DNA from: Streptomyces sp. CC53 | Lineage (GTDB): Bacteria; Actinomycetota; Actinomycetes; Streptomycetales; Streptomycetaceae | Direction: 5' to 3' | DNA: 64,000 bases | Assembly (NCBI RefSeq): GCF_001865245.1 | Contig: NZ_MKXB01000145.1 | Location: 27,217-91,216, forward strand | In this document: piece after piece, positions 2,369-17,773 of the stretch | Layout: the number at the start of each line of letters is the position of its first letter | Position numbering within the stretch: position 1 is the first letter of the stretch | Position numbers and translations under genes: made by a program | The notes under the pieces: model-generated | The model's database searches: none | What the model was told of the DNA's origin: nothing | What the model saw: only the letters and a program-made list of their open reading frames with translations

Positions 2369-3979
2369 ATGGCGGCCACTGGATCCGAGAAGCAGGGGAA
2401 AACGACGTACTACGTCTCCACCCCCATCTACTACGTCAACGACGCTCCTCACCTGGGCCACGCCTACACGACCGTCGCAGGCGACGTGCTCACGCGCTGG
2501 CACCGTCAGCGCGGCGAGAAGGTGTGGTACCTCACCGGCACGGACGAGCACGGTCAGAAGATCATGCGCACGGCCGACGCGAACGGGGTCTCCCCGCAGG
2601 AGTGGTGCGACAAGCTCGTGGAGGAGGCGTGGAAGCCCCTCTGGGAGCACCTGGAGATCGGACACGACGACTTCATCCGCACCACCCAGAAGCGGCACAC
2701 GGACCGCGTCCAGGAGTTCGTGCAGGACCTGTACGACAAGGGCGAGATCTACAAGGGCGGCTACGAGGGCCCGTACTGCGTGGGCTGTGAGGAGTACAAG
2801 CTCCCCGGCGACCTGATCGAGGACGAGCAGGGCACGAAGCTCTGCCCGGTCCACAAGAAGCCGGTGGAGATCCTCAAGGAGGAGAACTACTTCTTCAAGC
2901 TCTCCGCGTACGGCCCGAAGCTGCTGGAGTTCTACGAGGCGAACCCGGGCTTCATCCAGCCCGAGTCGGCCCGCAACGAGGTCGTGAACTTCGTCAAGCA
3001 GGGCCTGGAGGACCTCTCCATCTCGCGCTCCACCTTCGACTGGGGCATCCCGATCCCCTGGGACGAGAAGCACGTCATCTACGTGTGGGTGGACGCCCTG
3101 CTGAACTACGCGACGGCCGTCGGCTACGGCGCCGACCAGGCGAAGTTCGACGCGACGTTCCCCGCGGACGTGCACCTGATCGGCAAGGACATCCTCCGCT
3201 TCCACGCGGTGATCTGGCCGGCCATGCTGATGGCGCAGGGCCTGCCCGTGCCGGGGAAGGTCGCCGCGAACGGCTGGCTGATGGTCGGCGGCGAGAAGAT
3301 GTCGAAGTCGAACCTGACCGGCATCAAGCCGCAGGACCTGACCTCGCACTTCGGCGTGGACGCCTACCGCTGGTACTTCCTGCGGGCCATCGCGTTCGGC
3401 CAGGACGGCTCGTTCTCGTGGGAGGACTTCACCGCCCGCTACACCTCGGAGCTGGCCAACGACTACGGCAACCTCGCCTCACGCGTCGCGGCGATGGTCG
3501 GCAAGTACTTCGGCGGCGCCCTGCCGGAGGCCACCGCCGGCGGCGAGGCCGAGCAGGCGATCAAGGACGGCCTGGCCACGGCGGTCGCCGAGGCCGACCG
3601 GAAGATCGGCGAGGAGCTGGACTTCCAGGGCGGCATCCTCGCCGTCTTCGACTTCGTGAAGCAGGTCAACGGCTACATCACGGAGCAGGAGCCGTGGAAG
3701 GTCGCCAAGGACGAGTCGCCCGAGGGGCGCGCCCGCCTGGCGACGATCCTCTACACGGCGGCGGAGTCCCTGCGCGCGGTGGCGGTCCTGCTGAACCCGG
3801 TCATGCCGGACACCTCGCAGAAGCTGTGGGACTCCCTGGGCGCGGAGGCGTCGCTGGGCGCCCTCGCGGACCAGAAGGTGCAGGAGGCCGCCGACTGGGG
3901 CCGCCTCCCGGCCGGTGCGACGGTCACGAAGGGCGCGGTGCTGTTCCCGCGCCTGGAGGAGCCGAAGAAGGACCAGTAG
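2369..3979 (+). CDS. metG: Methionyl-tRNA synthetase, 536 aa
   Basis: Class I aminoacyl-tRNA synthetase that charges tRNA-Met (initiator and elongator) with methionine in the cytoplasm. The HIGH signature is HLGH at about residues 28-31, followed by LTGTDEHGQK. A cysteine-containing insert (CVGCEEYKL, then LCPVHKKP) lies at the connective-peptide position. The KMSKS loop is at about 309-313. There is no C-terminal tRNA-binding (EMAP-like) domain, which fits the short 530-residue form. ATG at 2369 follows a GGATAGGA ribosome site; the upstream in-frame extension is low-complexity and rejected. It is a single gene transcribed toward the convergent MFS gene. Confidence 0.97.
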   Translation: MAATGSEKQGKTTYYVSTPIYYVNDAPHLGHAYTTVAGDVLTRWHRQRGEKVWYLTGTDEHGQKIMRTADANGVSPQEWCDKLVEEAWKPLWEHLEIGHDDFIRTTQKRHTDRVQEFVQDLYDKGEIYKGGYEGPYCVGCEEYKLPGDLIEDEQGTKLCPVHKKPVEILKEENYFFKLSAYGPKLLEFYEANPGFIQPESARNEVVNFVKQGLEDLSISRSTFDWGIPIPWDEKHVIYVWVDALLNYATAVGYGADQAKFDATFPADVHLIGKDILRFHAVIWPAMLMAQGLPVPGKVAANGWLMVGGEKMSKSNLTGIKPQDLTSHFGVDAYRWYFLRAIAFGQDGSFSWEDFTARYTSELANDYGNLASRVAAMVGKYFGGALPEATAGGEAEQAIKDGLATAVAEADRKIGEELDFQGGILAVFDFVKQVNGYITEQEPWKVAKDESPEGRARLATILYTAAESLRAVAVLLNPVMPDTSQKLWDSLGAEASLGALADQKVQEAADWGRLPAGATVTKGAVLFPRLEEPKKDQ

Positions 3980-4111
3980 GAACGGCCCGGCGGGCCCCCG
4001 ATCACCGGCGGGCCCGCCCACCGGCAGCTCGTGGGGCCCCTCCGGCGCGCAGGGCAGCACGCGGGAGGGGTCTTCCCGTGTCCGGGGGCCCGAGAGGAGG
4101 CGCGGCGCCGC

Positions 4112-5542
4112 TTACCGCGGACCGGGTCCACCGGCCGGTGCCGCCGGTTCCGCGCAGGCCGCGGCCGAGGCCGTGCGGGAGGGTTCCGGCACCGCGGGCG
4201 CGGAAGGCGCGGCCACCGCAGATTCCCCGGCAGGCCCCTCCGGGCCCCCCGGCAGGCGGGCCGCGCCCGTTGCGGCGGCAGCCGCCTCCCGCACCCCGCC
4301 GGCCCCCGGCACGGCGGCAGCCGCATCCGGCTCCTCCGGTTCCGCCCGGTAGGTGCGGGCCACCCACGCCCCGCCCGCGGCGAAGAGCACCATGACCGCA
4401 GTGAGGCTCCAGAAGCCGGCGGCCGGCGACACGGTCGCCGACCTGCCGATCACCGGCATCAGCGCCGCCGTCCCCAGGCCGATGGCGAGCAGCCGCAGCG
4501 AGGCCATCTTGGCCTTGTCACCGTCCGACGCCCGCTGCTGGAGCGTGGTCAGCAGCCATGTCAGGCTGTTGAGGTTGGCGAACCCCGCCAGGAAGAAGGC
4601 GAGGAAGTGCACGGCCGCCGTGTCCGACGCGGCCAGGAGCACCGCGGCTGCCGCCTGGCCCAGCAGCCACAGCGGCAGCAGCCGCTGGGCCACGAGCCGA
4701 CGGGTGAAGAACGAGGCGCTGATCATGCCGACGGCGAAGGTGGCCTCCAGCGCGGCGATGTACCCGCCCCGGCCGCCGTACCGGCTGTCCACCAGCGGCA
4801 CGACCAGGGCGCTCAGCGCGTGCGCGAAGACGAAGTCACCCGCGCACAGCAGGATCATCAGGAACACCGACCGGTACCGGCGGTACCGGCCCAGCATGCG
4901 GCGCCACTCGCCGACCGTGCCCGCCACCGCCGTGCCCAGCAGGCGGGCGGACAGCGGCGGGTTGTCCTCGTTCGCGGTGAGCCGGACCCGGGCGACCGCG
5001 CCGGCGCAGGCCACCGACATGACGACGTCCACCAGCAGTGCGTGTTCGGCCGTGCCCCACGTGAGGATCAGCCCCAGCAGCGCCATCCCGGTGAGGGCAC
5101 CGGCCTGGAAGGCCACGCCGATCATGCTGTTGAACCGGGCGATGTGGGCCTCGTCCACGTGGTGGGCGGTGAGTTTGAACAGCGCCGACCGTTCCACGTT
5201 GTCGAAGACCGCGAGGAGGACGGCGACCGCCACCATCGCGGGGACGGCGCTCGTCCCGGGCAGCGTCGCGAGCACCACGATGAGCAGCACGGCGGCGGCG
5301 CGGCCGAGGCCGCACAGGGCGTACACCCACCGGGAGCTGACCGCGTCCACCAGCGGCCCGCACAGCGGCAGCACGCAGAACGCGGCCAGTCCCTGGAGGG
5401 TGAGGATGAGGGCGAACGCGCCGGGGCTCCCCGTGCGGTCGTACAGCAGCTGGCCCATGGCCAGGGTGTGGATGCCGACGCCGACGCTGGACAGGGAGAT
5501 CGCCCCCAGCATGGTGCGGGCCACCGGGTCGCGGCGGAGCAT
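4112..5542 (-). CDS. MFS transporter, probable product exporter, 476 aa
   Basis: Integral membrane protein with about twelve hydrophobic segments over residues 10-405, typical of the DHA/EmrB-like efflux branch of the major facilitator superfamily. Residues from about 410 form a low-complexity Ala/Pro/Gly tail that looks non-essential. The ATG at 5542 shares one base with the stop of the upstream adenylating-enzyme gene (TGATG), so it is the last gene of the biosynthetic operon. That position suggests export of, or self-resistance to, the operon's product (inference). Substrate cannot be read from sequence. Confidence 0.88.
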   Translation of the reverse strand: MLRRDPVARTMLGAISLSSVGVGIHTLAMGQLLYDRTGSPGAFALILTLQGLAAFCVLPLCGPLVDAVSSRWVYALCGLGRAAAVLLIVVLATLPGTSAVPAMVAVAVLLAVFDNVERSALFKLTAHHVDEAHIARFNSMIGVAFQAGALTGMALLGLILTWGTAEHALLVDVVMSVACAGAVARVRLTANEDNPPLSARLLGTAVAGTVGEWRRMLGRYRRYRSVFLMILLCAGDFVFAHALSALVVPLVDSRYGGRGGYIAALEATFAVGMISASFFTRRLVAQRLLPLWLLGQAAAAVLLAASDTAAVHFLAFFLAGFANLNSLTWLLTTLQQRASDGDKAKMASLRLLAIGLGTAALMPVIGRSATVSPAAGFWSLTAVMVLFAAGGAWVARTYRAEPEEPDAAAAVPGAGGVREAAAAATGAARLPGGPEGPAGESAVAAPSAPAVPEPSRTASAAACAEPAAPAGGPGPR

Positions 5543-7497
5543 CAGCAGGCCACCTCCAGCCTGCGGTCGATGACCGTCTTCACCTTGCCGCTGACCGCGT
5601 TGCGCGCCAGGCGGCCCTCGGAGTGGCACTCGACCCGCAGCTCGTACACGTCCAGTGCGGCGTCGAAGTCCTGGAGTGCGCCCAGGACGGGGAACTCCGC
5701 CACGAGCAGCTCCCGCACCTCGGCGGCGTCCAGCGGCACCGGCGACTCGGTGCGGACGGTGAGGATCTCCTTGCTGCCCTCGCTGGACACCTCGATCTGC
5801 AGCTGGGAGACCCGCCGGCCCTCCAGCACGGCCAGGACGTCGCCGTAGAGCACCGTCTCGCCCTTGAAGCGGATCAGCCCGTCGGAACGGCCCAGGTACT
5901 CCAGGACCCGCCCCGCCACTCCGCACGGGCAGGCGTGGTCGAAGATCCGCCCCGTGTCGCCGATCCGGTAGCGGACCAGCGGCCCCTCGAACTTCTGCAC
6001 CGTGGTGACCAGCACCTCCCCCACGGCGCCGTCCGGCAGCGGGGCGCCGTCCTCGTCGACGATCTCCAGGAGGTTGTAGTCGTCGTTGAGGTGGTGCAGC
6101 GTCCCGCCCAGGTGGGCGCACTGGTAGCCGAGCTGGGCACCGTCGTTCGCGGCGAGGATGCTGGACACCACCCGGGCGCCGAGTGCGTCGCGCAGCCAGT
6201 CCCGGTCGGTCCGCGTCATCGGGGTGCCGCCGTAGAGGACCTTCTCGATCCGCAGCCCGGGGCAGCGCTCCTTGGCGTCCCTCAGCAGCGGCAGGATCAG
6301 CGCCGGCATCCCGAGGACCACGTTCGCGCCGAACCGGCCGGTCAGCATCAGCACGTCGTCCACGGTCGCGAACTGCCCGGTCGAGTACGCCTCCACGGGC
6401 ATCCGGGACAGTTCGCTGAACGTCGTGGTGAGGCCGCCGTACATGCCGCCGCCGAACAGCGTGTTGATCACCCGGTCGCCGGGCTCCAGGCCCATCCCGT
6501 ACAGGACGGGGACCGCCTCGCGGACCATGTTGTCCCAGTCGGCCCGGGAGTACACGATGTAGCGCGGGTCGCCGCTGGTCGCGCCGGAGCGCAGCACCTC
6601 GCCCGTGGCCGGGCCGCCGCTGCACAGCCCGCGCCCGGCGGGCGGCGAGTGCGCCTCCAGATCGGCCTTCTCCAGGACGGGCAGGGCGGCGAGGCCGCGC
6701 ACGCCGTCCACCTCGGGCAGGTCCGCGTAGTACGGGTGGCGCCGGGCGCGGGCGGTGAGCAACCGCAGCCGCGCCGCCATCCGCGCGTCCCGCCCGGCGT
6801 CCGAGGCGCGGGCCCGGGCCAGGGTGACACCGGGCAGGTGACGGCGGGTCAGCAGCCGGTGCACCCAGGGCGCCTGGCAGTCCAGGGCGAGTGAGGCGCC
6901 CTCCGGCAGGGCGGGGACGTCCACGGCGACACCGGCGACGGGGGTGCCGGGCGCCGCCACGCGACCCGCGGGCAGCGGAGTGCCCGCGGCGCGCAGTGCG
7001 TCCATGACGGCGGTCCACAGGGCGGGCCGCGCCGAGCGCACGACGACCTCGTTGCCCAGCGCCCAGGCGAGCAGCAGCCCGCGCAGCACCGCCTCGGCGG
7101 CTCCGGCGGCGGCACCGGGGGCGGGCCCGTCGGGTGCGGCCGCGGGATCCGCGCCCCGGCCGGGTCCGGCGCCGGACCCGGCGGCTGCCGCCGCGTGGGC
7201 TCCGGTGCCCGCGCCCGGGGCTTCGCCCTCCCCCTCCCGGTCGTCGAGCACGACGGTGCCCACGGGCCCCGTCTCCATGACGTCGTCGCTGTCGGTCAGC
7301 GGCTGCCACGGGTACTGGCCGACGCCGTCGAGGAGCCGGTCCAGGCCCAGCAGGAGCTGCTCGCCGTCGAAGCGGCTCGGCGGCTCGGCGACACCCGCCC
7401 GGCGCAGGGCGTCGGCCAGCTCGGGGAGCGCGCCCCCGGTGAGGGACCGCTCGACGTGTTCGACGGCCAGCAGCAGGTCGGTGGGGTAGTGCCTCAT
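5542..7497 (-). CDS. LuxE/PaaK-like adenylating enzyme with LuxC-like N-terminal extension, 651 aa
   Basis: Residues from about 240 to the end are an acyl- or aryl-activating enzyme of the phenylacetate-CoA ligase / LuxE / CapK group: a Ser/Thr/Gly-rich ATP loop (RSGATSGDPRYIVYS), YGGTPMT, RYRIGDTGRIF and a C-terminal RFKGETVLYGD lobe. The first roughly 230 residues are unusual. They include LRGLLLAWALGNEVVVRSAR, which resembles the nucleotide-binding part of LuxC-type acyl reductases, but I see no clear catalytic cysteine. They also hold a low-complexity Gly/Ala stretch at about 85-135. The ATG overlaps the upstream stop (ATGA). Likely role: activate a carboxylic acid for the pathway. Acyl-acceptor and any reductase activity are unknown. 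Confidence 0.8.
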   Translation of the reverse strand: MRHYPTDLLLAVEHVERSLTGGALPELADALRRAGVAEPPSRFDGEQLLLGLDRLLDGVGQYPWQPLTDSDDVMETGPVGTVVLDDREGEGEAPGAGTGAHAAAAAGSGAGPGRGADPAAAPDGPAPGAAAGAAEAVLRGLLLAWALGNEVVVRSARPALWTAVMDALRAAGTPLPAGRVAAPGTPVAGVAVDVPALPEGASLALDCQAPWVHRLLTRRHLPGVTLARARASDAGRDARMAARLRLLTARARRHPYYADLPEVDGVRGLAALPVLEKADLEAHSPPAGRGLCSGGPATGEVLRSGATSGDPRYIVYSRADWDNMVREAVPVLYGMGLEPGDRVINTLFGGGMYGGLTTTFSELSRMPVEAYSTGQFATVDDVLMLTGRFGANVVLGMPALILPLLRDAKERCPGLRIEKVLYGGTPMTRTDRDWLRDALGARVVSSILAANDGAQLGYQCAHLGGTLHHLNDDYNLLEIVDEDGAPLPDGAVGEVLVTTVQKFEGPLVRYRIGDTGRIFDHACPCGVAGRVLEYLGRSDGLIRFKGETVLYGDVLAVLEGRRVSQLQIEVSSEGSKEILTVRTESPVPLDAAEVRELLVAEFPVLGALQDFDAALDVYELRVECHSEGRLARNAVSGKVKTVIDRRLEVAC

Positions 7498-8078
7498 GGG
7501 TGTATGTCCTCGGAGTCCTCGGGAAGGGGTGGATCGGGCGGCCAGGGGCCGGGCGCGCCGCTGAGCAGGTCGGCCGTGAACGCGCGCAGGACCGCCTCCG
7601 ACCGCCGGTGCACCATGTGGACGGGTCTGCGGCCCGGCCGCGGGCCGCGGACGAGGGCGGCCTGCCGCCGCAGCACGTACGGGGCGTCCGCCGCGGCGTG
7701 GAAGGCGGCGGGGTCGCGGGCGGCGAGCGCGGCCCACTCCCGCTGCCCCCGGCCGAGGGCGGCGCGCCCCAGCTCCAGCAGGTCCGCGTCGCACGGTCCG
7801 CTGCTCAGCCGCACCAGTCCGATGCCGTCGGCGTCCGTGGTGAGCGCCGCGCACGCCGGCCCGTCGGGCGCGCCGCGCTCCCGCAGCGCCGCCAGCACGG
7901 TCTCCACCGCCCAGTCCTGTTCGGCGCCGCGGCGGGGCAGCAGGAGCGCCGCCGGGTAGACGCAGGAGGTGTCCGGAGGGGAGGCGGCTCGGCCGTGCAC
8001 CCGCCAGATCGCGCACACCCGGTGGGAGCCGCCTGCGCTCACCGTGCTGACGTGCAGCCCCGTGCTGATCGGAACCAT
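7494..8078 (-). CDS. Hypothetical protein in biosynthetic operon, 194 aa
   Basis: I do not recognise this protein. It starts MVPISTGLHVSTVSAGGSH, is Ala/Arg/Pro-rich and soluble-looking, has a conserved-style middle (LTTDADGIGLVRLSSGPCDADLLELG) and ends in a proline/acid-rich tail. It lies 10 bp after the reductase stop and overlaps the start of the adenylating enzyme by 4 bp (ATGA), so it is translated as part of the operon. It could be an accessory subunit of that enzyme, whose N-terminal reductase-like part seems incomplete; this is speculation based only on adjacency. Confidence 0.7.
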   Translation of the reverse strand: MVPISTGLHVSTVSAGGSHRVCAIWRVHGRAASPPDTSCVYPAALLLPRRGAEQDWAVETVLAALRERGAPDGPACAALTTDADGIGLVRLSSGPCDADLLELGRAALGRGQREWAALAARDPAAFHAAADAPYVLRRQAALVRGPRPGRRPVHMVHRRSEAVLRAFTADLLSGAPGPWPPDPPLPEDSEDIHP

Positions 8079-8088
8079 CGCGGTGCCG

Positions 8089-9105
8089 CTAGCCGTGCGG
8101 GTCGAGCCGCACGACGGCCTTGCCGGTGTTGGCGCCGCGCAGCATGCCGAGGAACGCGTCGACGGCGTGGTCGAAGCCCTCGGTCACGCTGAGCCGGTCC
8201 ACCACGCGCCCCGCCCGCAGGTGCGGCACCAGGAAGTCCTCCAGCTCCTGCTGCGCGTCCCCGTGGCGTGCGACGAGGAAGCCCTCCAGGCGGATGCTCT
8301 TCTCCACGAGGTCGAAGAGGTTGCGCGGGGCGGCGGGCGGGGTGGCCGCGTGGTACTGGGCGATGGCGCCGCACCAGGCGATCCGGCCGTGCTCCCGCAT
8401 CGAGGCGATCGCCGCCTCCAGGTGGTCGCCGCCGACGTTGTCGACGTACACGTCGATCCCGTCGGGGGCCGCCTGCCGCAGCTGGTGGGCGAGCGGGGCG
8501 GGGGCACTGCGGTCGAGGGCGGCGTCGAAGCCGAGCTCCTCGGTGAGCAGGCGCGCCTTGGCCGGGGAACCGGCGCTGCCGACGATCCGACCGGCGCCCA
8601 GCAGCCGGGCGAGCTGCCCCACGGCGGTGCCGACGCCGCCGGCAGCCGCCGACACGAACACGGTCTCGCCCGCGCGCAGCCGGGCGATCCGGGTGAGCGC
8701 CACGTAGGCGGTCAGTCCGGTGCCGCCGAGCAGTCCGAGGAACGACTCGGGGGCGATCCCCTCGTACGCGGGCAGCCGCCGGGCCTCCCCCGGGGTCAGG
8801 ACGGTGTGGGTGCGCCAGCCGTCGCGGTGGAAGACGAGGGAGCCGACGGGCAGTCCGGGGCTGAGGGAGTCCGTGACCCGCCCGACGGAGCGTCCTTCGA
8901 GCGGGGCGTGCAGGTCCCAGTCGCCGTCCATGCACTCCCGCATGTACGGGTCCACGGACAGCCACAGGTTCTCCACCAGGGCGGTGCCGGGGGTGAGCGG
9001 CGGCAGGGTGAGCTCCACCTCGGTGAAGTCGTCCGGCACGGGCATGCCGCGGGGGCGCCGGGCCTGCTGCACCACGCGGGCGGGGATCGCGGTGGGGGTG
9101 CTCAC
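8089..9105 (-). CDS. NADP-dependent MDR-family oxidoreductase, 338 aa
   Basis: Zinc-independent medium-chain dehydrogenase/reductase of the leukotriene B4 12-hydroxydehydrogenase / alkenal double-bond reductase type. Markers are LSVDPYMR near residue 50, GGTGLTAYVAL, the nucleotide-binding AAAGGVGTAVGQLA, and DVYVDNVGGDHLEAAI. Such enzymes usually reduce an activated C=C bond with NADPH. GTG at 9105 overlaps the ATP-grasp stop (GTGA), fixing the start; a longer upstream frame is a shadow. Fifth enzyme of the operon; its substrate is presumably an enone or enoyl intermediate (inference). Confidence 0.87.
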   Translation of the reverse strand: MSTPTAIPARVVQQARRPRGMPVPDDFTEVELTLPPLTPGTALVENLWLSVDPYMRECMDGDWDLHAPLEGRSVGRVTDSLSPGLPVGSLVFHRDGWRTHTVLTPGEARRLPAYEGIAPESFLGLLGGTGLTAYVALTRIARLRAGETVFVSAAAGGVGTAVGQLARLLGAGRIVGSAGSPAKARLLTEELGFDAALDRSAPAPLAHQLRQAAPDGIDVYVDNVGGDHLEAAIASMREHGRIAWCGAIAQYHAATPPAAPRNLFDLVEKSIRLEGFLVARHGDAQQELEDFLVPHLRAGRVVDRLSVTEGFDHAVDAFLGMLRGANTGKAVVRLDPHG

Positions 9106-10313
9106 GCGGCCACCCGCCGCTCCGCCGCAGGCTGCGGGCCGGCGTCGACCGTCACGGTGCGGGCGCACTCCTCCAGGAAGCGCCGCAGCTGCCCGGCGTC
9201 GGTGTGGGACGCCTCGATGAACACGGGTACTTCCCACTCCTGGTAGGTGATGTGCACGGGGGCCGCCCGGCCGGGGGCGAGGGTGTGGACACGGTCGGCG
9301 CAGGGGTGGGTGCGCACACTGTCCGGGACGGTGATCGCGGCCGGGGTGCCTTCGGGGAGGTGGTGGCCGGGGAAGGCCAGCCAGCCGTGGTAGCGGCCGC
9401 TGGGGCGGCCCGTCGCGGGCCGGTCGAGGCCGAGCCGGACGGCGATCTCGTGGGACGGCAGGTGCACCCCGGTGTGCTGCTCGTGCAGGGGGACGACGGC
9501 GGCGCCGCCGACCCGGTTGGCGACCTCCAGGAAGACCCGTTCGCCGTCGGCGGTCTCGAAGAACTCCAGGTGCAGGGAGCCCTCCTCGATGCCGAGTGCC
9601 GTGACGACCCGCTGGGCGAAGGCCCGCTGCTCGGGGCTGTGCGGCTCCTGGTGGGAGCCGAGCGGCGTCCCCGCGGCGTACTCGACGGGCTTGTTGACGT
9701 ACCGGCTGACGGCGAGGTCCACCAGGCGGCCGTCCTGGACGAGGCCGTCGGCGTGCAGGATGTCGCCGTCGATGTGCTCCTCCAGCTGGAACGCGCCGGG
9801 GTCGGGCAGCTTCCAGTAGGCGCCGAGGGCGTCCCGGGCCGTCTCGTGGACGGTGACGTCCTCACTGGAGGCGCCCTGGCGCGGTTTGAGGACCGTGCGG
9901 CCGGTCCACGGCAGGGGCCTGCACCGGGACGGTTCGCGGACGAACCGCGGGTGGCGCAGCCCGGAGCCCGCCAGGGCCTCCTTCATGCGCACCTTGTCCC
10001 GCACCAGTTCCACCTGTTCCGGCGCCGGCCCGCCGATGCCGAGGTGGCGGCGTACGGAGCAGGCTTCGGCGATGCCGAACTCGGAGAGGGCGAGCACCTT
10101 CTCGAAGCCGTCGGCGGGTGAGGTGCGGGCGCACACCCCGGCGACGAGGTCCTCGTCCGGGTCGAGGACGAGCCGGGTGCAGCGCAGCCCGTCGGGCAGG
10201 TCGGCCATCCGGTGGGGGTGCCCGACGTAGGTCACGTCGTGCCGCCCGTGGTCGATCGCCCGCTGGTAGTCGATCTTCCGGTACGGCACCTGGTGCATGA
10301 CGAGGATCTTCAT
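9102..10313 (-). CDS. ATP-grasp ligase, 403 aa
   Basis: Carboxylate-amine or carboxylate-thiol ligase of the ATP-grasp superfamily. Visible are the lysine-containing ATP loop RTVLKPRQGASSEDV, the hinge FQLEEHIDGDILHADG and the metal-binding end LHLEFFETADGERVFLEVANRVGGA with the E-x-N-x-R pattern. The overall length and layout match amino-acid or dipeptide ligases of antibiotic pathways rather than D-Ala-D-Ala ligase. ATG at 10313 overlaps the KASIII-like stop (ATGA). It probably forms an amide bond between pathway building blocks (inference). Confidence 0.88.
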   Translation of the reverse strand: MKILVMHQVPYRKIDYQRAIDHGRHDVTYVGHPHRMADLPDGLRCTRLVLDPDEDLVAGVCARTSPADGFEKVLALSEFGIAEACSVRRHLGIGGPAPEQVELVRDKVRMKEALAGSGLRHPRFVREPSRCRPLPWTGRTVLKPRQGASSEDVTVHETARDALGAYWKLPDPGAFQLEEHIDGDILHADGLVQDGRLVDLAVSRYVNKPVEYAAGTPLGSHQEPHSPEQRAFAQRVVTALGIEEGSLHLEFFETADGERVFLEVANRVGGAAVVPLHEQHTGVHLPSHEIAVRLGLDRPATGRPSGRYHGWLAFPGHHLPEGTPAAITVPDSVRTHPCADRVHTLAPGRAAPVHITYQEWEVPVFIEASHTDAGQLRRFLEECARTVTVDAGPQPAAERRVAA

Positions 10314-11269
10314 CCCTGATACTCCAAGGTCGTGATGCCCCAGCTGAAGCCCATGGCGCTGGTGGCGAGCATGATCAGGTCGCCGCGACTCAGCCGGCCT
10401 GCGCGTTCGAGGTCACCGAGCGCGATGAGGGTGTCGGTACCGCCCATGTGGGCCAGGCGGTGGTAGTTGAAGACGCTGCGTGCGGCCGGGATGCCCAGGC
10501 TGTCCAGCAGCCGCAGATGCATGGTCCGATCGCCGTGGTTGATCAGGAAGTGCGCGATGTCCGGGCGCTTCCTGCCGAGGACGGTGAGCGTCTCGTCGAC
10601 CAGGTCGGTGAAGTTCCGTACGTACGCGTCGGCGAGGCCGCTGCGGTGCGCGGCGCGCCGGATGACCACCCGGCCGTGCGCCTGCTCGCCCGCGTAGTAG
10701 TCGGACCAGCTGCCGTCGGTGCGCATGGCGGAGTGGAGGAGGCGGAAACGGCCCGCACCGCCCTCCAGCAGTACCGCCGCAGCCGCATCACCGAAGTTGA
10801 ACAGAGCTTTGGCATCGGGGTCCCCGTAGTCCACCATCCGGCTCAGCCGGTCCCCGACCAGGACCAGCGCGTGGTCGCCGGGGCCGAGCGCGCCCGGCAC
10901 GGTCAGCAGGCGCAGCGCGGTCATCCCGGCGTTGCAGAAGTTCGCCACCTCGAAGCAGTGGGCGCGGTCGACGCCCAGTTCGTGGGCGACCTTCGCGGCC
11001 GGCGACCAGAACGGCCGGTCCCATTCTCCGGAGCCGGCGTAGACGACCTGCCGGATGCGGGAGGTCGCCACGCCGGTCCTGGCGATCACGTCCCGGGCCG
11101 CGTCCCGGGCCAGCTCCCACGCCGACTCGCCGTCGGCGAGCACGGGGAAGCTCTCGCAGTGGGTGATCGAGGCGAGGTCCGCGAGGGCCACACCGGAGGC
11201 CCGGTGCATGGCGTGGATGTCGGCCCTCGCGGAGGGGAGGCGGACGGCGAAGTCGGCTATGCCGCCCAC
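10310..11269 (-). CDS. KASIII-like ketoacyl synthase / acyltransferase, 319 aa
   Basis: Thiolase-fold protein of the FabH group. With the GTG start at 11269 the nucleophile is C112 (EVANFCNAGMTAL) and the base is H245 (LINHGDRTMHL). At the position of the FabH asparagine I read H274 (AHMGGTDTLIAL). Loss of that Asn suggests acyl transfer to an O or N nucleophile rather than decarboxylative condensation, as in the CerJ-type relatives (established family knowledge, applied by inference). The GTG is nested in the last codons of the upstream oxygenase gene with a GGACAGGAC-like site ahead. The longer frame to 11689 is a shadow of that gene. No acyl carrier protein gene is visible in the operon. 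Confidence 0.83.
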   Translation of the reverse strand: MGGIADFAVRLPSARADIHAMHRASGVALADLASITHCESFPVLADGESAWELARDAARDVIARTGVATSRIRQVVYAGSGEWDRPFWSPAAKVAHELGVDRAHCFEVANFCNAGMTALRLLTVPGALGPGDHALVLVGDRLSRMVDYGDPDAKALFNFGDAAAAVLLEGGAGRFRLLHSAMRTDGSWSDYYAGEQAHGRVVIRRAAHRSGLADAYVRNFTDLVDETLTVLGRKRPDIAHFLINHGDRTMHLRLLDSLGIPAARSVFNYHRLAHMGGTDTLIALGDLERAGRLSRGDLIMLATSAMGFSWGITTLEYQG

Positions 11270-12120
11270 TGGGCGTCCTGTCCGCGTTCCTCGATGCTGA
11301 CGCGGTGCACGGTGCGGTCCACGCCCGGCTCGACCGCGGTGGCCGCGTGGTAGGTCGTCGCGGTCTTCCAGACCAGCAGGTCGTTCCTGGTCCAGCGGTG
11401 CGTGTAGACATGGGCGGGGTCCTGGATCAGACCGTCGATCACCGCGAAGAACTCCTCGTTCTCGTTGGCGTCGAAGCCCGTCACCGCCTGCATGTACTCG
11501 GGCGCGCCGTACAGGTACGGGCGGCCGGTGTGCGGGTCGAGCCTGACCAGGGGGTGCTCGGTCGGCGGGTACTCCTGCTCGACGAGGGCCCGGAACTCGG
11601 CGATGGACAGCCCCACGTGCTCCTGCGCGATCCGCTGCCGCTTGCCGACGGTGTGCAGGGCGGTACGGCCGGCGATCCGGTCCTTCCACCGCTGCGGCAG
11701 CCGGTCGTAGACGTCGACGGCGCTGGCGTAGAGGGTGTGTCCGCTGGTGCCGGGCACGTCGACACCGTGCAGCATCGTGTACGGCGCCGGGTCCTTCGTG
11801 TACGAGGAGTCCTGGTGCCAGAAGTTGCCGACCCGGGCGACGCCGACGGGGCGGTTCGCCCGCGTCGCGTTCGAGGAGATCATGATCTCCGGGTGTTCCG
11901 GGTGCCGGTACTTGGCCATCAGGAACGGCACGGGCCGGCCGATCCGGGACGCGAGGGCGATCTGCTGCTGCGGGGTGAGCTCCAGCCCGCGGACGACCAC
12001 GAGCTCGCGCCGGTGGACGCCGTCGAGGAGCTGCCGGAACACCTCCGGGTCCTGGAGGTCCTCGTAGGTCACTCCGGTCATCTCGGAGCCGATGAAGGGG
12101 GTGATGTCCTTGATCTGCAT
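11257..12120 (-). CDS. TauD-family Fe(II)/2-oxoglutarate-dependent dioxygenase, 287 aa
   Basis: Non-haem iron oxygenase of the TauD/TfdA/clavaminate-synthase group. The 2-His-1-carboxylate triad begins with H102-x-D104 (NFWHQDSSY); the distal histidine is in VWKTATTYHAATAV, and the 2-oxoglutarate-binding arginine is in DRTVHRVSIEE. Such enzymes hydroxylate, desaturate, cyclise or fragment small metabolites. ATG at 12120 lies 34 bp after the aminolevulinate-synthase-like stop, and its 3' end overlaps the KASIII-like start by 13 bp. Substrate unknown; its place between the two carbon-chain enzymes suggests tailoring of an amino-ketone or amino acid (inference). Confidence 0.9.
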   Translation of the reverse strand: MQIKDITPFIGSEMTGVTYEDLQDPEVFRQLLDGVHRRELVVVRGLELTPQQQIALASRIGRPVPFLMAKYRHPEHPEIMISSNATRANRPVGVARVGNFWHQDSSYTKDPAPYTMLHGVDVPGTSGHTLYASAVDVYDRLPQRWKDRIAGRTALHTVGKRQRIAQEHVGLSIAEFRALVEQEYPPTEHPLVRLDPHTGRPYLYGAPEYMQAVTGFDANENEEFFAVIDGLIQDPAHVYTHRWTRNDLLVWKTATTYHAATAVEPGVDRTVHRVSIEERGQDAQWAA

Positions 12121-12154
12121 GCGTGGGTCCTTGGCAGGTGGGTACGGGCGGTCG

Positions 12155-13369
12155 TCAGGCGGCGTCGAGGCAGGTCCGCAGGGCGCGGACGAAGCCGTCG
12201 ATCTGCTCCTGGGTGCGGAAGGGCGCGACCGTCACGCGGAACCGCTCGCCGCCCTTGGCGACGGACGGGTAGTTGATGGGCTGGACGTAGATGTCGAACT
12301 CGTCGAGCAGCCGCCGTGAGACGGCCTTGACGCGCTCGCCGCCGGGCACGAGCACGGGCACCAGGTGGCTCTCCGCGTCGATGAAGTCGATTCCGGCGCG
12401 GTGCAGCGCGGTCCGCATGCGGACGGCGTTCGCCTTGAGCCGCAGCCGCATCTCGGCGCCCTGCTCACCCTGGATGACGTCGAGGCTGCGCCGGGTGGCG
12501 TCGAGGCTGGACCGCGGGATGGTGGTGGTGAAGATGAAGCCGGGCGCGTACGACCGCACGTAGTCGAGGGCCGTGTCGGGGCCGGCGACGTAGCCGCCGG
12601 TGGTGCCGACGGCCTTTCCGAAGACCCCTTGCACAAAGGTGGGCCGGTACTCGCCGATCTCCTCGCATATACCGGCGCCGGTGGGCCCGTTGACACCGAT
12701 CGCGTGAGTCTCGTCGAGATACGTCATGGCGTTGTACCGCTCCGCCAGATCACATATCCGGCTGATCGGCGCGACGTCCCCGTCCATCGAGTAGACGGAT
12801 TCGAAGACAATCAGTTTGGGCCGCTCGACCGGGTACTGGGCGAGCAGTTCCTCCAGCGCCGCCACATCGCTGTGCGGGAAGATGTGGCGGCGATTCCCGA
12901 CGGAGCGGATCCCTTCGATGAGGGAGCGGTGGTTCAGGGAATCGGAGAACACCACCGTGTCGGGCTCGGCCGCGAGGAGAGTGGTGAGCGTTTCGAAGTT
13001 CGCGACGTATCCACTGGTGAAGACCAGGGCCCGCGGGCGGCGGTGCCAGGCGGCGAGCCGGGCTTCCAGTTCAACGTGGGCCTCACTGGTCCCCGCGATG
13101 TTGCGGGAGCCGCCGTTGCCGGTGCCGTGCCTCCGCGTCGAGGCGATCTGCGCCTCCATGACCTGCGGGTTCTGGCTCATGCCCAGGTAGTCGTTGGTGC
13201 ACCAGACCTGGATGCGCCGCCCCTGGTGCAGCGCGTACCCCGGTTCCTCCGCGAGGTACGAGCAGGGCGTGAACTCCCGGTAGAGGCCGGAGGCCTTGAG
13301 GTCCGTCAGCTTGCCGGCCAGGCCTTCGAACGGGGCCGGCGGGCGCACGGAAAGCTGTTCGGCGGACAT
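12155..13369 (-). CDS. 5-aminolevulinate synthase-like alpha-oxoamine synthase, 404 aa
   Basis: PLP enzyme of the alpha-oxoamine synthase family that joins an amino acid to an acyl-CoA with loss of CO2. Markers are WCTNDYLGMSQNP, GTGNGGSRNIAGTSEAH, VYSMDGDVAPI, YLDETHAIGVNGPTG, the PLP lysine in VFGKAVGTTGGYVAG, and the terminal IYVQPINYPSVAKG block typical of aminolevulinate synthases rather than biotin-type KAPA synthases. Streptomyces make haem from glutamyl-tRNA, so an ALAS here points to secondary metabolism, as in C5N-unit pathways (established). The ATG at 13369 has AGGAG six bases upstream. First enzyme gene of the operon. Confidence 0.92.
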   Translation of the reverse strand: MSAEQLSVRPPAPFEGLAGKLTDLKASGLYREFTPCSYLAEEPGYALHQGRRIQVWCTNDYLGMSQNPQVMEAQIASTRRHGTGNGGSRNIAGTSEAHVELEARLAAWHRRPRALVFTSGYVANFETLTTLLAAEPDTVVFSDSLNHRSLIEGIRSVGNRRHIFPHSDVAALEELLAQYPVERPKLIVFESVYSMDGDVAPISRICDLAERYNAMTYLDETHAIGVNGPTGAGICEEIGEYRPTFVQGVFGKAVGTTGGYVAGPDTALDYVRSYAPGFIFTTTIPRSSLDATRRSLDVIQGEQGAEMRLRLKANAVRMRTALHRAGIDFIDAESHLVPVLVPGGERVKAVSRRLLDEFDIYVQPINYPSVAKGGERFRVTVAPFRTQEQIDGFVRALRTCLDAA

Positions 13370-13415
13370 GGTTCTCCTGTCACTGGTATTCGGTGCGGCG
13401 GCTCGACGGGGAAGG

Positions 13416-13565
13416 TCAGCCCCACCGCGAGTCGTCCGCCAGGGCGGCGACCGCGGCGCGCTCCGGCCGCCCCTCGGTATCCGCCTGAACGCCCACCGCC
13501 AGAAGTGCGAGGACCGCCGCACCGAGCACGCCGAATACGGAACGAAGGATCTTTGCCTTCAGCAT
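13416..13565 (-). CDS. Small exported peptide, 49 aa, first gene of the biosynthetic operon
   Basis: The peptide has a lysine/arginine N-terminus (MLKAKILRSVFG), a hydrophobic core (VLGAAVLALLAVGVQA) that looks like a Sec signal with cleavage after AVGVQA, and a short polar tail ending DDSRWG. That would release about 24 residues. The start at 13565 follows a run of G and A (GGGGGGAA); twelve more in-frame codons upstream lack a ribosome site. It lies 46 bp before the aminolevulinate-synthase-like gene on the same strand and faces the LuxR-type regulator. Role unknown; a signalling peptide or a vestigial leader are possibilities, neither shown. Confidence 0.6.
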   Translation of the reverse strand: MLKAKILRSVFGVLGAAVLALLAVGVQADTEGRPERAAVAALADDSRWG

Positions 13566-13590
13566 GAAAAAATTCCCCCCAATATCCTGT

Positions 13591-13611
13591 CGGGCCGCCA
13601 CTTCCGGCCCG
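13591..13611 (-). promoter_or_regulatory. Hairpin in the leader of the small-peptide gene
   Basis: CGGGCCG and CGGCCCG form a 7-bp stem with a seven-base loop, 26 bases upstream of the peptide start codon on the minus strand. It is followed by an A/T-rich run toward the ribosome site. It could be a leader attenuator or simply RNA structure protecting the transcript. Confidence 0.35.
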
Positions 13612-13661
13612 TGACCAGAATCATGCGCCCTGGCAGTCGCCTGGAACAGGGAAACCCAGCA

Positions 13662-13673
13662 GCATGATCATGC
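13662..13673. promoter_or_regulatory. 12-bp perfect palindrome between operon and LuxR regulator
   Basis: GCATGATCATGC reads the same on both strands and sits about 28 bp ahead of the LuxR-type start and about 97 bp ahead of the small-peptide start. Placement in a divergent promoter region suggests an operator for the neighbouring regulator. This is inference from symmetry and position. Confidence 0.4.
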
Positions 13674-13700
13674 AAGCGCCAGAACCTGAAGGTCAGACAC

Positions 13701-14687
13701 ATGTGCACGAAAAGTGATGAAAAAGATCAAACCGGACTTCCGTCGGTGTGCGAAGAGGGGTTGTCCTTCTACGCGGAGACCCTGAAGGGTCGCTTCCAGC
13801 CCGAGGAATGCCCGGAATGTCTACTCGCTCTGGGCTTCGTACAACGCGGCGGCGACGGCCAGCTCGTCCCCATCCCACCGGGCCTCGCGGCGAACTCCCT
13901 GCTCGTCCCCATGGAGGAGAGGATCGAGTCCACGCAGCGGGTCCTGGCCCGGGCAAGAGCGGCGGTGCACCAGGTGGAGGAGGTCTACCGATCCGTCGGG
14001 AGCGACTCCGGCGTGCGGGTCATCCGGGGCGCTGCCGCCATCAACGCCACGCTGGAGAGGGTGGTGAACTCCTGCCACGATGAGCTGCTGACGGCGCAGC
14101 CGGGCGGCGGCCGGGCTCAGGAGCTGCTGGAGGAGGCGCTGCCGTCCGACGTGGCCGCGCTCCGCCGCGGCGTACGCCAGCGCACCATCTACCAGCACAC
14201 CGTCCGCACCCACAGCCCCACGCTGTCCTACGTGGAGCAGGTCTCCGCAGCGGGCGCCGAGGTGCGCACCCTGGACGAGGTCTTCGACCGGCTCATCGTC
14301 TGCGACCGCAGGATCGCCTTCGTCCCGGACCCCGCCGAGGAGCGCCGCCAGTTCGCCCTGGCCATCGAACACCCCGGCCTCATCCGCTACCTCGTCGGCA
14401 TCTTCGACCACGCCTGGGAGCGCGCCGTCCCCCTCGACTACGCCCCCAGCGCGCACCGCCCGCCCCTGCTCGCCAACGAGACCCGCCGCGCGGTCCTCCA
14501 GCTCATGGTCAACGGCTACACGGACGAGACGATCGCCGGGCGCCTCGGCATGAGCACCCGGACCGTCGCCACCCATATCCGCAAGGCGTCCGAGCTGCTC
14601 GGCAGCCGCAGCCGCGCCCAGCTCGCCTATCTGATCGCCAAGGCCGGCCTGCTGGACGAGGACGAGCCGGCGGCCGGCGCGCTCTGA
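13701..14687 (+). CDS. LuxR-type HTH regulator, pathway-specific candidate, 328 aa
   Basis: The last 65 residues form a LuxR/FixJ-type HTH (LMVNGYTDETIAGRLGMSTRTVATHIRKA). The first part has a winged-helix/TrmB-like look with a CPECLLALGFVQR segment, and the middle resembles the PLD-like sensory domain seen in Streptomyces LuxR proteins that sit next to peptide or lipid clusters. It lacks a typical phospho-acceptor receiver domain. The ATG at 13701 has GAAGG about ten bases before it. It is divergent from the nine-gene operon, which it probably controls (inference). Confidence 0.88.
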   Translation: MCTKSDEKDQTGLPSVCEEGLSFYAETLKGRFQPEECPECLLALGFVQRGGDGQLVPIPPGLAANSLLVPMEERIESTQRVLARARAAVHQVEEVYRSVGSDSGVRVIRGAAAINATLERVVNSCHDELLTAQPGGGRAQELLEEALPSDVAALRRGVRQRTIYQHTVRTHSPTLSYVEQVSAAGAEVRTLDEVFDRLIVCDRRIAFVPDPAEERRQFALAIEHPGLIRYLVGIFDHAWERAVPLDYAPSAHRPPLLANETRRAVLQLMVNGYTDETIAGRLGMSTRTVATHIRKASELLGSRSRAQLAYLIAKAGLLDEDEPAAGAL

Positions 14688-15013
14688 GCACCCGCGCCAC
14701 GCCGCCCCCCGCCGGGCCCCGGCACCGCACCCGGCACACCGCCACGGCACCCTCCGCCCACCGCGCCTCCGCCCACCACGCCCGGCCCACACGCCCCGCC
14801 CCGGCGGCCCCCGGCACCGCACCCGGCACACCGCCACGGCACCCTCCCCCACCGCGCCACGCACCGCCAGGCCACGACGCCCCGCACCCACCCGGCCAGA
14901 CCGTCGGCGTGCCCACCACGCGGGCTCGGCGCGCCCCGGCCCCCGCCGGGCAGGACACCACCCCCCGGGGTCACCGGGGACGCACCCGGCGGCCCACGGT
15001 CACCGGCCTCCCC
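14688..15013. other. 326-bp intergenic stretch with a 39-bp direct repeat
   Basis: No gene is supported here. A 39-bp segment beginning CCCCGGCACCGCACCCGG occurs at 14717-14755 and again, identical, at 14809-14847. The stretch is extremely C-rich on the plus strand and separates the LuxR regulator from the convergent L,D-transpeptidase gene. ORFs crossing it are composition artefacts. Confidence 0.6.
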
Positions 15014-15823
15014 TCACCGGGCCAGGCTCAGCACGTCGCCCATCACCACCACCGGCCGCGCCGACGGGTCGAGCCACGTCAGCACCTCCTTCATCTGCGG
15101 CTTCTCCAGGGACACACAGCCCTGGGTGGGGCCGTCGTGGTCGACGTGGAGCCAGATGCCTCCGCCGCGCTCCGCGCCCAGGGGGCGGGTCCAGTCCAGG
15201 GGGGACGTGCCCGGCTTGCGGTTGTAGTTGATGGCGACGACATAGTCGAAGGAGCCCGCCAGCGGTTCCCCGAGGGCACCGGTGCCGGTGACCGTGAAGG
15301 CCGGCCCCTGGTCGTAGGGGAGCTTCGTGCCCGGGTTCGGCAGCAGGCCGCCCGCGTCCGTCAGGCCGTACACGCCGACGGGCGAGCGCAGGTCGTCCTG
15401 GACATGGTGGTCGGTCCACCCCTTGGCCGCGTTGTGCGCGGGCCACGGGCCGGACACCGGCTTCCAGCCGTCCCCGGGCCGCCGCTCGTAGAGGGTGACG
15501 GTGGCGTCGCTGGAGTCCCGGTCCTTCCCCCGGACGACGACCGCCTGCGTGGTGGCCGGGTCGAGGGCGGCCCGGGTGCGGGGCCCGAGGCCGGGGATGT
15601 CGGCCGGGGCGGGCGGCGGCAGCAAGGGGAGACCGGCAGCGGCGCGCCCCGCGGGCGGCGGCGTGCCCCCGTGGTCGCCGGGGCCCTTCGCCCCGGCGGC
15701 CGGCGGGTGGCTCCGCGCCCCGTCCGGTGGGCCGCCGTCGGCGCACGCGGTCACCGGCAGGAGCGGGAACAGCACCGCGGCCACCACGGGGAGGCGGCGG
15801 CGCGGGCGGCGGAACGCGGGCAT
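15014..15823 (-). CDS. L,D-transpeptidase-family lipoprotein, 269 aa
   Basis: Cell-surface protein with a twin-arginine-like basic start, a hydrophobic stretch (VVAAVLFPLLPVTAC) ending in a lipobox-type cysteine, and a proline/alanine-rich linker. The C-terminal YkuD-type fold has the catalytic motif LHVDHDGPTQGCVSL (His, then Cys in TQGC; the usual Ser is Thr). Related Streptomyces proteins crosslink or hydrolyse peptidoglycan, but the Thr and the low similarity leave activity uncertain. ATG at 15823 follows GAAAGG about ten bases upstream; an in-frame start 48 bp earlier is less likely. Confidence 0.8.
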   Translation of the reverse strand: MPAFRRPRRRLPVVAAVLFPLLPVTACADGGPPDGARSHPPAAGAKGPGDHGGTPPPAGRAAAGLPLLPPPAPADIPGLGPRTRAALDPATTQAVVVRGKDRDSSDATVTLYERRPGDGWKPVSGPWPAHNAAKGWTDHHVQDDLRSPVGVYGLTDAGGLLPNPGTKLPYDQGPAFTVTGTGALGEPLAGSFDYVVAINYNRKPGTSPLDWTRPLGAERGGGIWLHVDHDGPTQGCVSLEKPQMKEVLTWLDPSARPVVVMGDVLSLAR

Positions 15824-15933
15824 GGGTCGGGCCTTTCGCAGGAGCCGGAGGTGCCGGGGCCGGGGCTTCACCCCCTGTCAACGCCTCCGCGCCCGTGCGG
15901 GGTTGCGGGTGACCGCCCGGTCGACAGAAACGC

Positions 15934-15972
15934 GCGGGCCCCGGGCCGGATTCCTCCGGTCCCGGGGCCCGC
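15934..15972 (-). terminator. Strong terminator downstream of aspS
   Basis: A 12-bp perfect outer stem (GCGGGCCCCGGG with CCCGGGGCCCGC) continues as a 5-bp inner stem (CCGGA/TCCGG) around a TTCC loop, with one bulged base. It lies 29 bp past the aspS stop. No U-run follows, which is normal for actinomycetes. Confidence 0.8.
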
Positions 15973-16000
15973 GCTCAGCGTGTGCGGTGCGCCGTGCGGC

Positions 16001-17773
16001 TCACTTGTCCTTGTCGGCCACCGGCTTGCGCAGCGCGATGTTCAGCTCCCGCAGCCGCGCCTCCTCCAGCTCCGTGGGGGCGCCCATCATCAGGTCCTGC
16101 GCGTTGCCGTTCAGCGGGAACGCGATGGTCTCGCGGATGTTCGGCTCGTCGGCGAGGAGCATGACGATGCGGTCGACGCCGGGGGCGATGCCGCCGTGCG
16201 GCGGGGCGCCGAAGCGGAACGCACGCAGCATGCCCGCGAACTCGCGCTCCACGGTGTCGCGGTCGTAGCCCGCGATCTCGAACGCCTTGATCATGATGTC
16301 CGGCTCGTGGTTCCGGATGGCGCCGGAGGACAGCTCGACGCCGTTGCAGACGATGTCGTACTGCCAGGCGAGGATGTCGAGCGGGTCCTTCTCCTCCAGG
16401 TCCTTCATGCCGCCCTGCGGCATGGAGAAGGGGTTGTGCGAGAAGTCGATCTTGCCGGTCTCCTCGTCCTTCTCGTACATCGGGAAGTCGACGATCCAGC
16501 AGAAGCGGAAGACGTCCTCCTCGAAGTGGCCGGCCCGCTTGGCGGCCTCGACGCGGACCGCGCCCATGATCTTCGCGACCTCGTCGACGTCACCGGCGCC
16601 GAAGAAGACCGCGTGGCCGGGCTTGAGGCCGAGGCGGTCGACGAGCGTCTTGACGTTCTCCTCGGTGAGGAACTTGGCGATGGGCCCGGTGAAGGCCATG
16701 TCGTCGCCGACGCGGATCCAGGCGAGGCCCTTCGCGCCGTGCTCCACGGCGAACTCGCCCAGCGAGTCGAAGAACTTGCGCGGCTGCCCGGCGACGTCCG
16801 GCACCGGCAGGGCGCGCACGTGCTTGCCGGCGAACGCCTTGAACTCGGAGTCGGCGAACACGTCGGTGATGTCGACGAGCTCCAGCTGGGCCCGCAGGTC
16901 CGGCTTGTCAGAGCCGTACTTCAGCATCGCCTCGCGGAACGGGATGCGCGGGAACGGCGAGGTCACGTGGCGGCCGTTGCCGAACTCCTCGAACAGCTCG
17001 GTCATGAGCTTCTCGATCGGCTGGAAGACGTCTTCCTGCGTCACGAAGCTCATCTCGACATCGAGCTGGTAGAACTCGCCGGGCGAGCGGTCCGCGCGGG
17101 CGTCCTCGTCGCGGAAGCAGGGCGCGATCTGGAAGTACCGGTCGAAGCCGGAGACCATCAGCAGCTGCTTGAACTGCTGCGGCGCCTGCGGCAGCGCGTA
17201 GAAGCGGCCGGGGTTCAGCCGGGACGGGACGACGAAGTCGCGGGCACCCTCGGGGGAGGTCGCGGTGAGGATCGGCGTCGCCATCTCGTTGAATCCGAGG
17301 GCGGTCATCTTCTGCCGGATCGCGGCGATCACCGCGGTGCGCAGCATGATGTTGCGGTGCATGCGCTCGCGGCGCAGGTCCAGGAAGCGGTACTCCAGGC
17401 GCCGCTCCTCGTTGACGCCGTCGTCCGTGTTGATCGTGAACGGCAGCGGGCCGGAGGCGCCCAGCACCTCGACCTCGGAGACCTCCACCTCGACCTCGCC
17501 GGTGGGCAGGTCCGGGTTGACGTTCTCGGTGCCGCGCGAGACGACCTTGCCGTCGATCCGGACGACGGATTCCTTGGTCTGCTTGTCGAGCGCCTCGTAC
17601 GCGGCGGTGCCGGGGCGGGCGACGAGCTGCGTGATGCCGTAGTGGTCGCGCAGATCGATGAAGAGGATGCCGCCCAGGTCGCGCCGATTGTGCAGCCAGC
17701 CGCTCAGCCGGACGTCGGTGCCGACGTCAGAGGCGCGGAGCTCGCCGCAGGTGTGGGACCTGTACCGATGCAT
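16001..17773 (-). CDS. aspS: Aspartyl-tRNA synthetase, 590 aa
   Basis: Class IIb aminoacyl-tRNA synthetase. N-terminal OB-fold anticodon-binding domain at about 15-110 ([21 protein letters not shown]). Class II motif 2 is [20 protein letters not shown], and motif 3 is [14 protein letters not shown]. The bacterial GAD insertion domain occupies the middle. Length 590 is normal for the bacterial type. Whether it charges only tRNA-Asp or also tRNA-Asn depends on an amidotransferase not in the window; many actinobacterial AspRS are non-discriminating. ATG at 17773; transcribed alone. Confidence 0.97.

Follow-up and report, generated by a model that had tools for sequence, protein, structure and literature searches.

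A conserved ALAS-like operon in Streptomyces led by a candidate pheromone precursor with a TrmB/LuxR-type partner

The window analyzed here, a stretch of 64,000 nt, is part of contig 145 of the 7.0 Mb Streptomyces-type genome of strain CC53, and the feature under study is a biosynthetic operon with its facing regulator gene (positions 4112–14687). Nine genes are encoded on the minus strand from 13565 down to 4112, with almost no gaps between them, and a LuxR-type regulator gene faces them on the plus strand (table 1). The peptide gene that leads the operon is separated by 46 bp from the gene of a protein resembling 5-aminolevulinate synthase (ALAS), which is followed after 34 bp by the TauD gene. 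The TauD and KASIII-like, the KASIII-like and ATP-grasp, and the 194-aa and PaaK-type genes overlap, and the ATP-grasp and medium-chain reductase (MDR) genes share 1 bp. Protein families were assigned with Pfam and NCBIfam profiles, and no polyketide synthase (PKS) or nonribosomal peptide synthetase (NRPS) core was found in the operon. A preliminary description of the window had listed the same genes and coordinates (a minus-strand operon with an exported peptide first and a facing LuxR-type regulator), which the gene calls, Pfam and NCBIfam bear out. Its label "LuxE-like" for one enzyme has to be replaced: this protein is a PaaK-family ligase based on its NCBIfam matches and its fold (Z about 21), and it carries an additional N-terminal region.

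Table 1. Features of the operon and its regulator gene in the window.
Feature	Position	Strand	Evidence
Regulator of the LuxR type whose N-terminal part resembles TrmB (winged helix, coiled coil, phospholipase D-like domain), candidate peptide sensor/activator	13701..14687	+	Pfam GerE 35.8 bits; AlphaFold model
Operator-like site TTGCATGATCATGCTGC containing palindrome GCATGATCATGC, upstream of the peptide gene	13659..13675	-	Conserved across regulator loci
Exported peptide of 49 aa ending in DSRWG, candidate pheromone precursor	13416..13565	-	Signal-like N-terminus; DSxW[GD] conservation
ALAS-like alpha-oxoamine synthase (pyridoxal phosphate, PLP), Thr83 to Ser	12155..13369	-	TIGR01821 438.6 bits; own clade
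TauD-type Fe(II)/2-oxoglutarate oxygenase	11257..12120	-	Pfam TauD 181.8 bits
KASIII-like acyltransferase, triad Cys112 / His-or-Gln / His274	10310..11269	-	Pfam ACP_syn_III and its C-terminal domain
ATP-grasp ligase distantly related to L-amino acid ligases	9102..10313	-	PDB 4wd3 E 6e-10
MDR reductase, curcumin / leukotriene-B4 (enone reductase) family	8089..9102	-	NF058644, TIGR02825
194-aa protein resembling a degenerate C-terminal half of an ATP-grasp ligase	7494..8078	-	NF005543 E 4.4e-5
PaaK-family adenylate-forming ligase, N-terminal extension of ~220 residues	5542..7497	-	NCBIfam PaaK-type matches; fold
Major facilitator superfamily (MFS) exporter	4112..5542	-	Pfam MFS_1 73.4 bits

Relatives were found by scanning 84,980 genomes with the KASIII-like protein, which yielded 24 loci. 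The core order ALAS-TauD-KAS-ATP-grasp is present in 19 named genomes among these loci, in Streptomyces, Kitasatospora, Streptosporangium, Streptacidiphilus and the proteobacterium Lysobacter, and a Saccharothrix locus (L035) contains just ALAS-TauD-KAS plus a methyltransferase. Within the order, a KAS match was found in 13 out of 392 genomes and the core in six of these 13, the window included. Because the same gene order is kept in about 20 genomes, a chance assembly is excluded: the genes form a real, dedicated gene cluster that is common to about 20 mostly soil bacteria. The ordered set was also searched against genomes and the open-access literature, a comparison that the preliminary description had proposed; it recurs in about 20 species, and no characterized match was found in the open-access papers searched, so that the earlier term "uncharacterized" holds for the searchable literature but the gene set is not unique. 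A literature search on the gene set, the peptide motif and Streptomyces peptide pheromones returned nothing relevant, which is weak evidence of absence since only open-access papers were covered. In L030, L032, and L033 the KASIII-like family is part of a different cluster, with genes that appear from sequence to be FkbH-like, acyl carrier protein, acyl-CoA dehydrogenase, AMP-ligase, LLM oxidoreductase-like and MFS genes.

Two close relatives (L014 and L036) carry the cluster at the same position beside aspS. The distance between aspS and metG is 12.0 kb in the window compared with 0.9–1.6 kb in three relatives, in agreement with the earlier view of an insertion beside a conserved metG, and in three further relatives the interval (3979–16001 in the window) is filled with 9–14 kb of unrelated genes. 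As both length and content of the aspS-metG interval differ between relatives, the block is an insertion beside metG that is readily gained or lost in a variable interval.

The ALAS-like protein scores 438.6 bits against the 5-aminolevulinate synthase model TIGR01821, above its curated cut-off of 338.55. Its family forms a single clade (support 100/100) that sits on a long branch and excludes 28 further ALAS homologues from Streptomyces, which were counted as cyclizing C5N ALAS (cALAS) based on marker residues. The PLP lysine K248 is kept in the family together with Arg21, Asn85, and Ile86 (R21, N85, and I86), which are the succinyl-CoA contacts of the R. capsulatus ALAS. Thr83, the residue that restricts heme-type ALAS to glycine, is serine in 20/20 members, with no change at the other cALAS markers, I149 and T365. 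The choice of amino acid is governed by Thr83, and T83S is crucial for cyclization in the asukamycin ALAS (PMC4525017). The substitution suggests that the enzyme may use a wider range of amino acids; glycine, which the preliminary description proposed to feed in labeled form, is not implied as the substrate, and such feeding alone could miss the product because the glycine-restricting threonine is replaced. The genome encodes the glutamyl-tRNA reductase hemA and therefore does not need an ALAS for heme, as had been claimed. An identity as heme-pathway ALAS was rejected on the basis of hemA and the residue difference at Thr83.

An alignment of 24 sequences of the KASIII-like family contains Cys112 in 24/24, His or Gln in place of the triad His, and His in place of the triad Asn in 24/24; the Cys-His-Asn triad of the KASIII (FabH) condensing enzymes is not found. 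The changed triad had been noted before, and the alignment confirms it, with the Asn always His and the His often Gln. With a triad altered in this way, the family is unlikely to act by malonyl decarboxylation and is expected to catalyze acyl transfer or a different condensation. In the TauD protein H102, D104, H258, and R269 are invariant in 14 sequences, corresponding to the HxD...H iron triad and the 2-oxoglutarate arginine. The solved proteins closest to it are ScoE-type oxygenases (E about 1e-32 to 1e-34), and an isonitrile pathway was rejected on a score of 140.5 bits against the cut-off of 400 of the ScoE isonitrile synthase model NF049937 and on partner genes not being seen among the cluster proteins. 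The ATP-grasp ligase retains E250, E263, N266, and R267 in 13 sequences (acidic and Asn ligands), and the MDR reductase scores 252 bits with NF058644 and 216 bits with TIGR02825, both under the equivalog cut-offs. The 194-aa protein is conserved in nine loci and matches NF005543 weakly over profile positions 204–335, the C-terminal half of an ATP-grasp ligase, with no recognizable catalytic part; its profile gave no match to PDB sequences. The model of the PaaK-type ligase matches PaaK-type ligases at Z 21.8 over residues 223–625, and its SGATxGxPR phosphate loop and C-terminal Lys638 are conserved in 16 sequences. Overall, all enzymes of the cluster appear able to work.

The exported peptide encoded before the ALAS gene ends in DSxWG (once DSxWD) in 11/11 relatives with a close regulator, and a DSxW[GD] peptide is present in 0/8 testable cluster relatives without one. 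The intergenic sequence TTGCNNNNTCATGNT, which contains the palindrome GCATGATCATGC in the window, is conserved upstream of the peptide in all regulator loci (diverged in L019), and the operator-like site also occurs in L018, whose regulator gene moved to the other end of the cluster. Among 146 loci the operator pattern was found only at regulator/peptide sites and their duplicates. A second operator-like site in the window (62044–62060) lies inside an unrelated coding gene and was taken as chance. The AlphaFold model of the regulator (pLDDT 82) matches TrmBL2 and phospholipase D (PLD)-like domains at Z 14–17 and LuxR DNA-binding domains at Z 11; the TrmBL2 match (Z 16) spans residues 12–246 with a large root-mean-square deviation at the hinge, and the match to Pfam TrmB is only 16.4 bits. 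The regulator is thus modeled as a TrmB-like body of archaeal type (winged helix, coiled coil, and PLD-like sensor domain) joined to a LuxR helix-turn-helix.

The regulator belongs to a family that extends across the genus. Paralogues were found in 55/61 Streptomyces genomes, including that of the window, often in tandem arrays. A divergent small open reading frame (ORF) that encodes a hydrophobic N-terminus together with a [D/E]xxW motif is located beside 34/57 regulator loci (the window's locus and some overlapping neighbors among them) compared with 0/171 control regions scanned identically; in the two sets that were analyzed, 16/30 and 18/27 paralogue loci are paired compared with 0/90 and 0/81 control regions. 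The precursors carry between 1 and 12 near-identical copies of the motif (e.g., DTGWT x6, DIGWS-type x6, EPSWE x4, DSGWG x9, and EPSWG x12) and match no Pfam or NCBIfam family, apart from two weak Pfam matches far under the cut-off. The motif classes track the regulator tree with 5 changes compared with 16.3 on shuffling, an agreement that fits cognate pairs. In the preliminary description the peptide and the regulator were simply listed. The peptide is indeed present and leads the operon, but it is conserved and probably a signal rather than part of the product, and the pair proved to be the most unusual part of the cluster.

Several further arrangements were observed within this family. The window's genome contains two more regulator-peptide pairs, with the motifs DPxWD x4 (G000:C151; L087, 1085–2445) and DVGWN (G000:C204; L101, 690–2289), and six copies of the TrmB/LuxR-type regulator form a tandem array at G412:C8:119567-125539. 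A conserved ORF of ~93 aa follows several multi-copy peptide genes (L076 2946–3227, L079 757–1038, L080 2963–3217, and L087 771–1052) and is Rieske-like, with a weak match to a glycine betaine monooxygenase subunit. Pairs of the DSxWG type also precede other operons of biosynthetic appearance, which on sequence grounds are leuA-like/thioesterase/P450/NRPS (L141), acetolactate synthase-like (L143), and carbamoyltransferase-like with ATP-grasp (L144).

The enzyme content indicates that the cluster probably makes a small peptide-like amino-ketone. The ALAS-like enzyme would condense a small amino acid with a CoA thioester of the succinyl type, releasing CO2, and the resulting 5-amino-4-oxo acid would be oxidized by the TauD enzyme. 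The KASIII-like protein would transfer or condense an acyl group without malonyl decarboxylation, the ATP-grasp and PaaK-type ligases would activate carboxylates and form an amide, the MDR enzyme would reduce an enone, and the MFS protein would export the product, a small amino-ketone pseudopeptide. The earlier reading of a dedicated metabolite operon without PKS/NRPS core finds support in the operon content and its conservation in about 20 genomes, and the amino-ketone and amide bond proposed with it are consistent with the ALAS-like and ligase enzymes; overall, that interpretation stands for the dedicated operon, the altered KASIII and the chemistry, but not for the glycine substrate or for uniqueness. 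Some relatives have enlarged operons, with a second, circularly permuted ATP-grasp ligase (L021, L025, and L027) or an aminotransferase (L015, L018, and L020). In L028 and L034 the operon is joined directly to a gene for a tricorn-type S41 peptidase, and in Lysobacter (L026) to one for an X-Pro dipeptidyl-peptidase. Self-resistance is commonly achieved with an additional copy of the target enzyme, and the product is predicted to inhibit a peptidase because three relatives carry such peptidase genes. One host, S. olivoreticuli ATCC 31159 (L018), is presumably a bestatin producer; bestatin as the product was rejected, as nothing supports it and the gene set is common to many other species.

For the peptide, a signaling cycle is proposed. 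The 49-aa peptide would be exported and trimmed to a short Trp peptide of the DSRWG type, which would be re-imported by an oligopeptide importer and bound by the PLD-like domain of the regulator, and the regulator would then switch on the operon from the palindrome. Export, trimming, import, binding, and operon activation are all steps that we infer. As the first gene of the operon encodes the peptide itself, the cycle would also amount to positive feedback that depends on cell density. In S. morookaense (L022, 12691–20078) and S. abikoensis (L029, 13478–20862) the cluster includes an extra oligopeptide-binding protein and adjoins typA and an opp operon; these opp genes may be mere chromosomal neighbors (typA is adjacent) and are not used here as proof of import.

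Taken together, we favor a dedicated specialized-metabolite operon under peptide control that makes an amino-ketone pseudopeptide, likely a peptidase inhibitor, and give this combined reading about even chances. Several points weigh against it. No cluster has a known metabolite and the substrates are argued from residues alone; the peptidase genes are located in three relatives and not in the window. About eight relatives lack the regulator and the peptide, several of them with a SARP-type regulator instead, and because they keep the enzymes, peptide control is not needed for the chemistry. Genes for import and maturation of the peptide were not identified, and co-inheritance of neighboring genes alone would give the same agreement between motif and regulator clades.

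Two other products have to be weighed against the pseudopeptide. In one, glycine and succinyl-CoA would be the substrates of the T83S ALAS, whose product 5-aminolevulinate would be activated by the PaaK-type ligase and cyclized, either by the KASIII-like enzyme or by the ALAS, to a C5N-type unit (aminocyclopentenone), and the ATP-grasp ligase would form the amide that an amide synthetase makes in manumycin-type pathways. The invariant T83S, held crucial for cyclization in the asukamycin cALAS (PMC4525017), would fit this route, as would a Thr in 19/20 members at the position that we mapped to asukamycin D231T (our own mapping, with different numbering) and the enone reductase and amide-forming ligase of the cluster. 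However, the family branches on a long stem outside the C5N-like clade, it lacks the changes of cALAS at I149 and T365, the conserved set contains a single adenylating enzyme (PaaK-type) and no AMS/ALL pair, and there is no polyketide acid for attachment, which makes a C5N-type unit unlikely. Less probable still is an alaremycin-like mimic of 5-aminolevulinate, made from serine and succinyl-CoA to poison porphobilinogen synthase, in which the ligation of an amino acid would serve to carry or mask the product: the enone reductase would suit a vinyl ketone and an export gene is present, but no GNAT N-acetyltransferase is found among the cluster proteins and several further enzymes would be left without a role. 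An amino-ketone pseudopeptide thus appears more likely than either.

The small ORF, in turn, might serve as a leader in transcription attenuation, or encode the precursor of a ribosomally synthesized and post-translationally modified peptide (RiPP) that the operon enzymes modify, rather than a signal. The single Trp near its C-terminus and its position as first gene would agree with such roles, and some RiPPs also have multi-copy cores. We consider them improbable given the signal-like N-terminus, the paralogous precursors with up to 12 motif copies, the different genes found 3' of the peptide in L141 and L144 (so that no common modifying enzyme exists), and the cluster relatives that retain the enzymes without the peptide. 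A bolder pheromone reading is that the pair of DSxWG peptide and TrmB/LuxR-type regulator represents a class of systems which is found throughout the genus Streptomyces and has so far not been described, and in which exported propeptides with 1 to 12 [D/E]xxW cores would be read by their own phospholipase D-fold sensors and some pairs would gate metabolite operons; we hold this tentatively, at slightly below even chances.

The cluster represents a set of conserved enzymes, with neither PKS nor NRPS among them, that would be overlooked by usual genome mining and that adds a new clade of ALAS-like carbon-carbon bond-forming enzymes and an altered KASIII, in about 20 culturable strains that are open to testing. 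More surprising than the cluster itself is the family of peptide-regulator pairs, which may represent a new signaling class. Extracellular oligopeptide signaling in Streptomyces development has been suspected for decades, and we know of no sequenced peptide. If the peptide acts as a signal, the genus would have a large pheromone family with readable sequences (short, synthesizable Trp peptides), and cell-cell signaling and the waking of silent clusters in Streptomyces would become directly testable.

Compared with known systems, the pair resembles RRNPP and other Gram-positive pheromone systems on paper, in that a small exported precursor is encoded beside a cytoplasmic regulator, but the RRNPP sensor is a TPR repeat whereas TrmB/phospholipase D-like and LuxR domains are predicted here, with a [D/E]xxW motif in up to 12 copies. 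Among the enzymes, the TauD protein has ScoE-type isonitrile-forming oxygenases as its closest solved counterparts and is set apart from them by the low family score and the pathway partners not seen. The C5N/manumycin-type cyclizing ALAS triad likewise includes a T83S ALAS-family enzyme in an actinomycete specialized-metabolite cluster, but the ALAS of the window belongs to a separate clade with the other markers unchanged, and neither an AMS/ALL pair nor a PKS accompanies it. Dynaplanin (dyn) shares a stand-alone ALAS-superfamily enzyme, an amino-ketone pseudopeptide, and the fact that it was missed by usual genome mining; it differs by two essential genes, a GNAT acyltransferase instead of an ATP-grasp ligase, and arginine and phenylacetyl-CoA as proposed substrates (PMC9239090). 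Ketomemicin (ktm) shares the ALAS-type condensation and ATP-grasp ligation without PKS or NRPS and is also a pseudopeptide (PMC11943689), but its aldolase, dehydratase, and amidinotransferase have no counterpart among the cluster proteins by Pfam and NCBIfam, which include a TauD oxygenase, a KASIII-like protein, a PaaK-type ligase, and an enone reductase instead. The cluster is a new variant of the NRPS-independent amino-ketone clusters.
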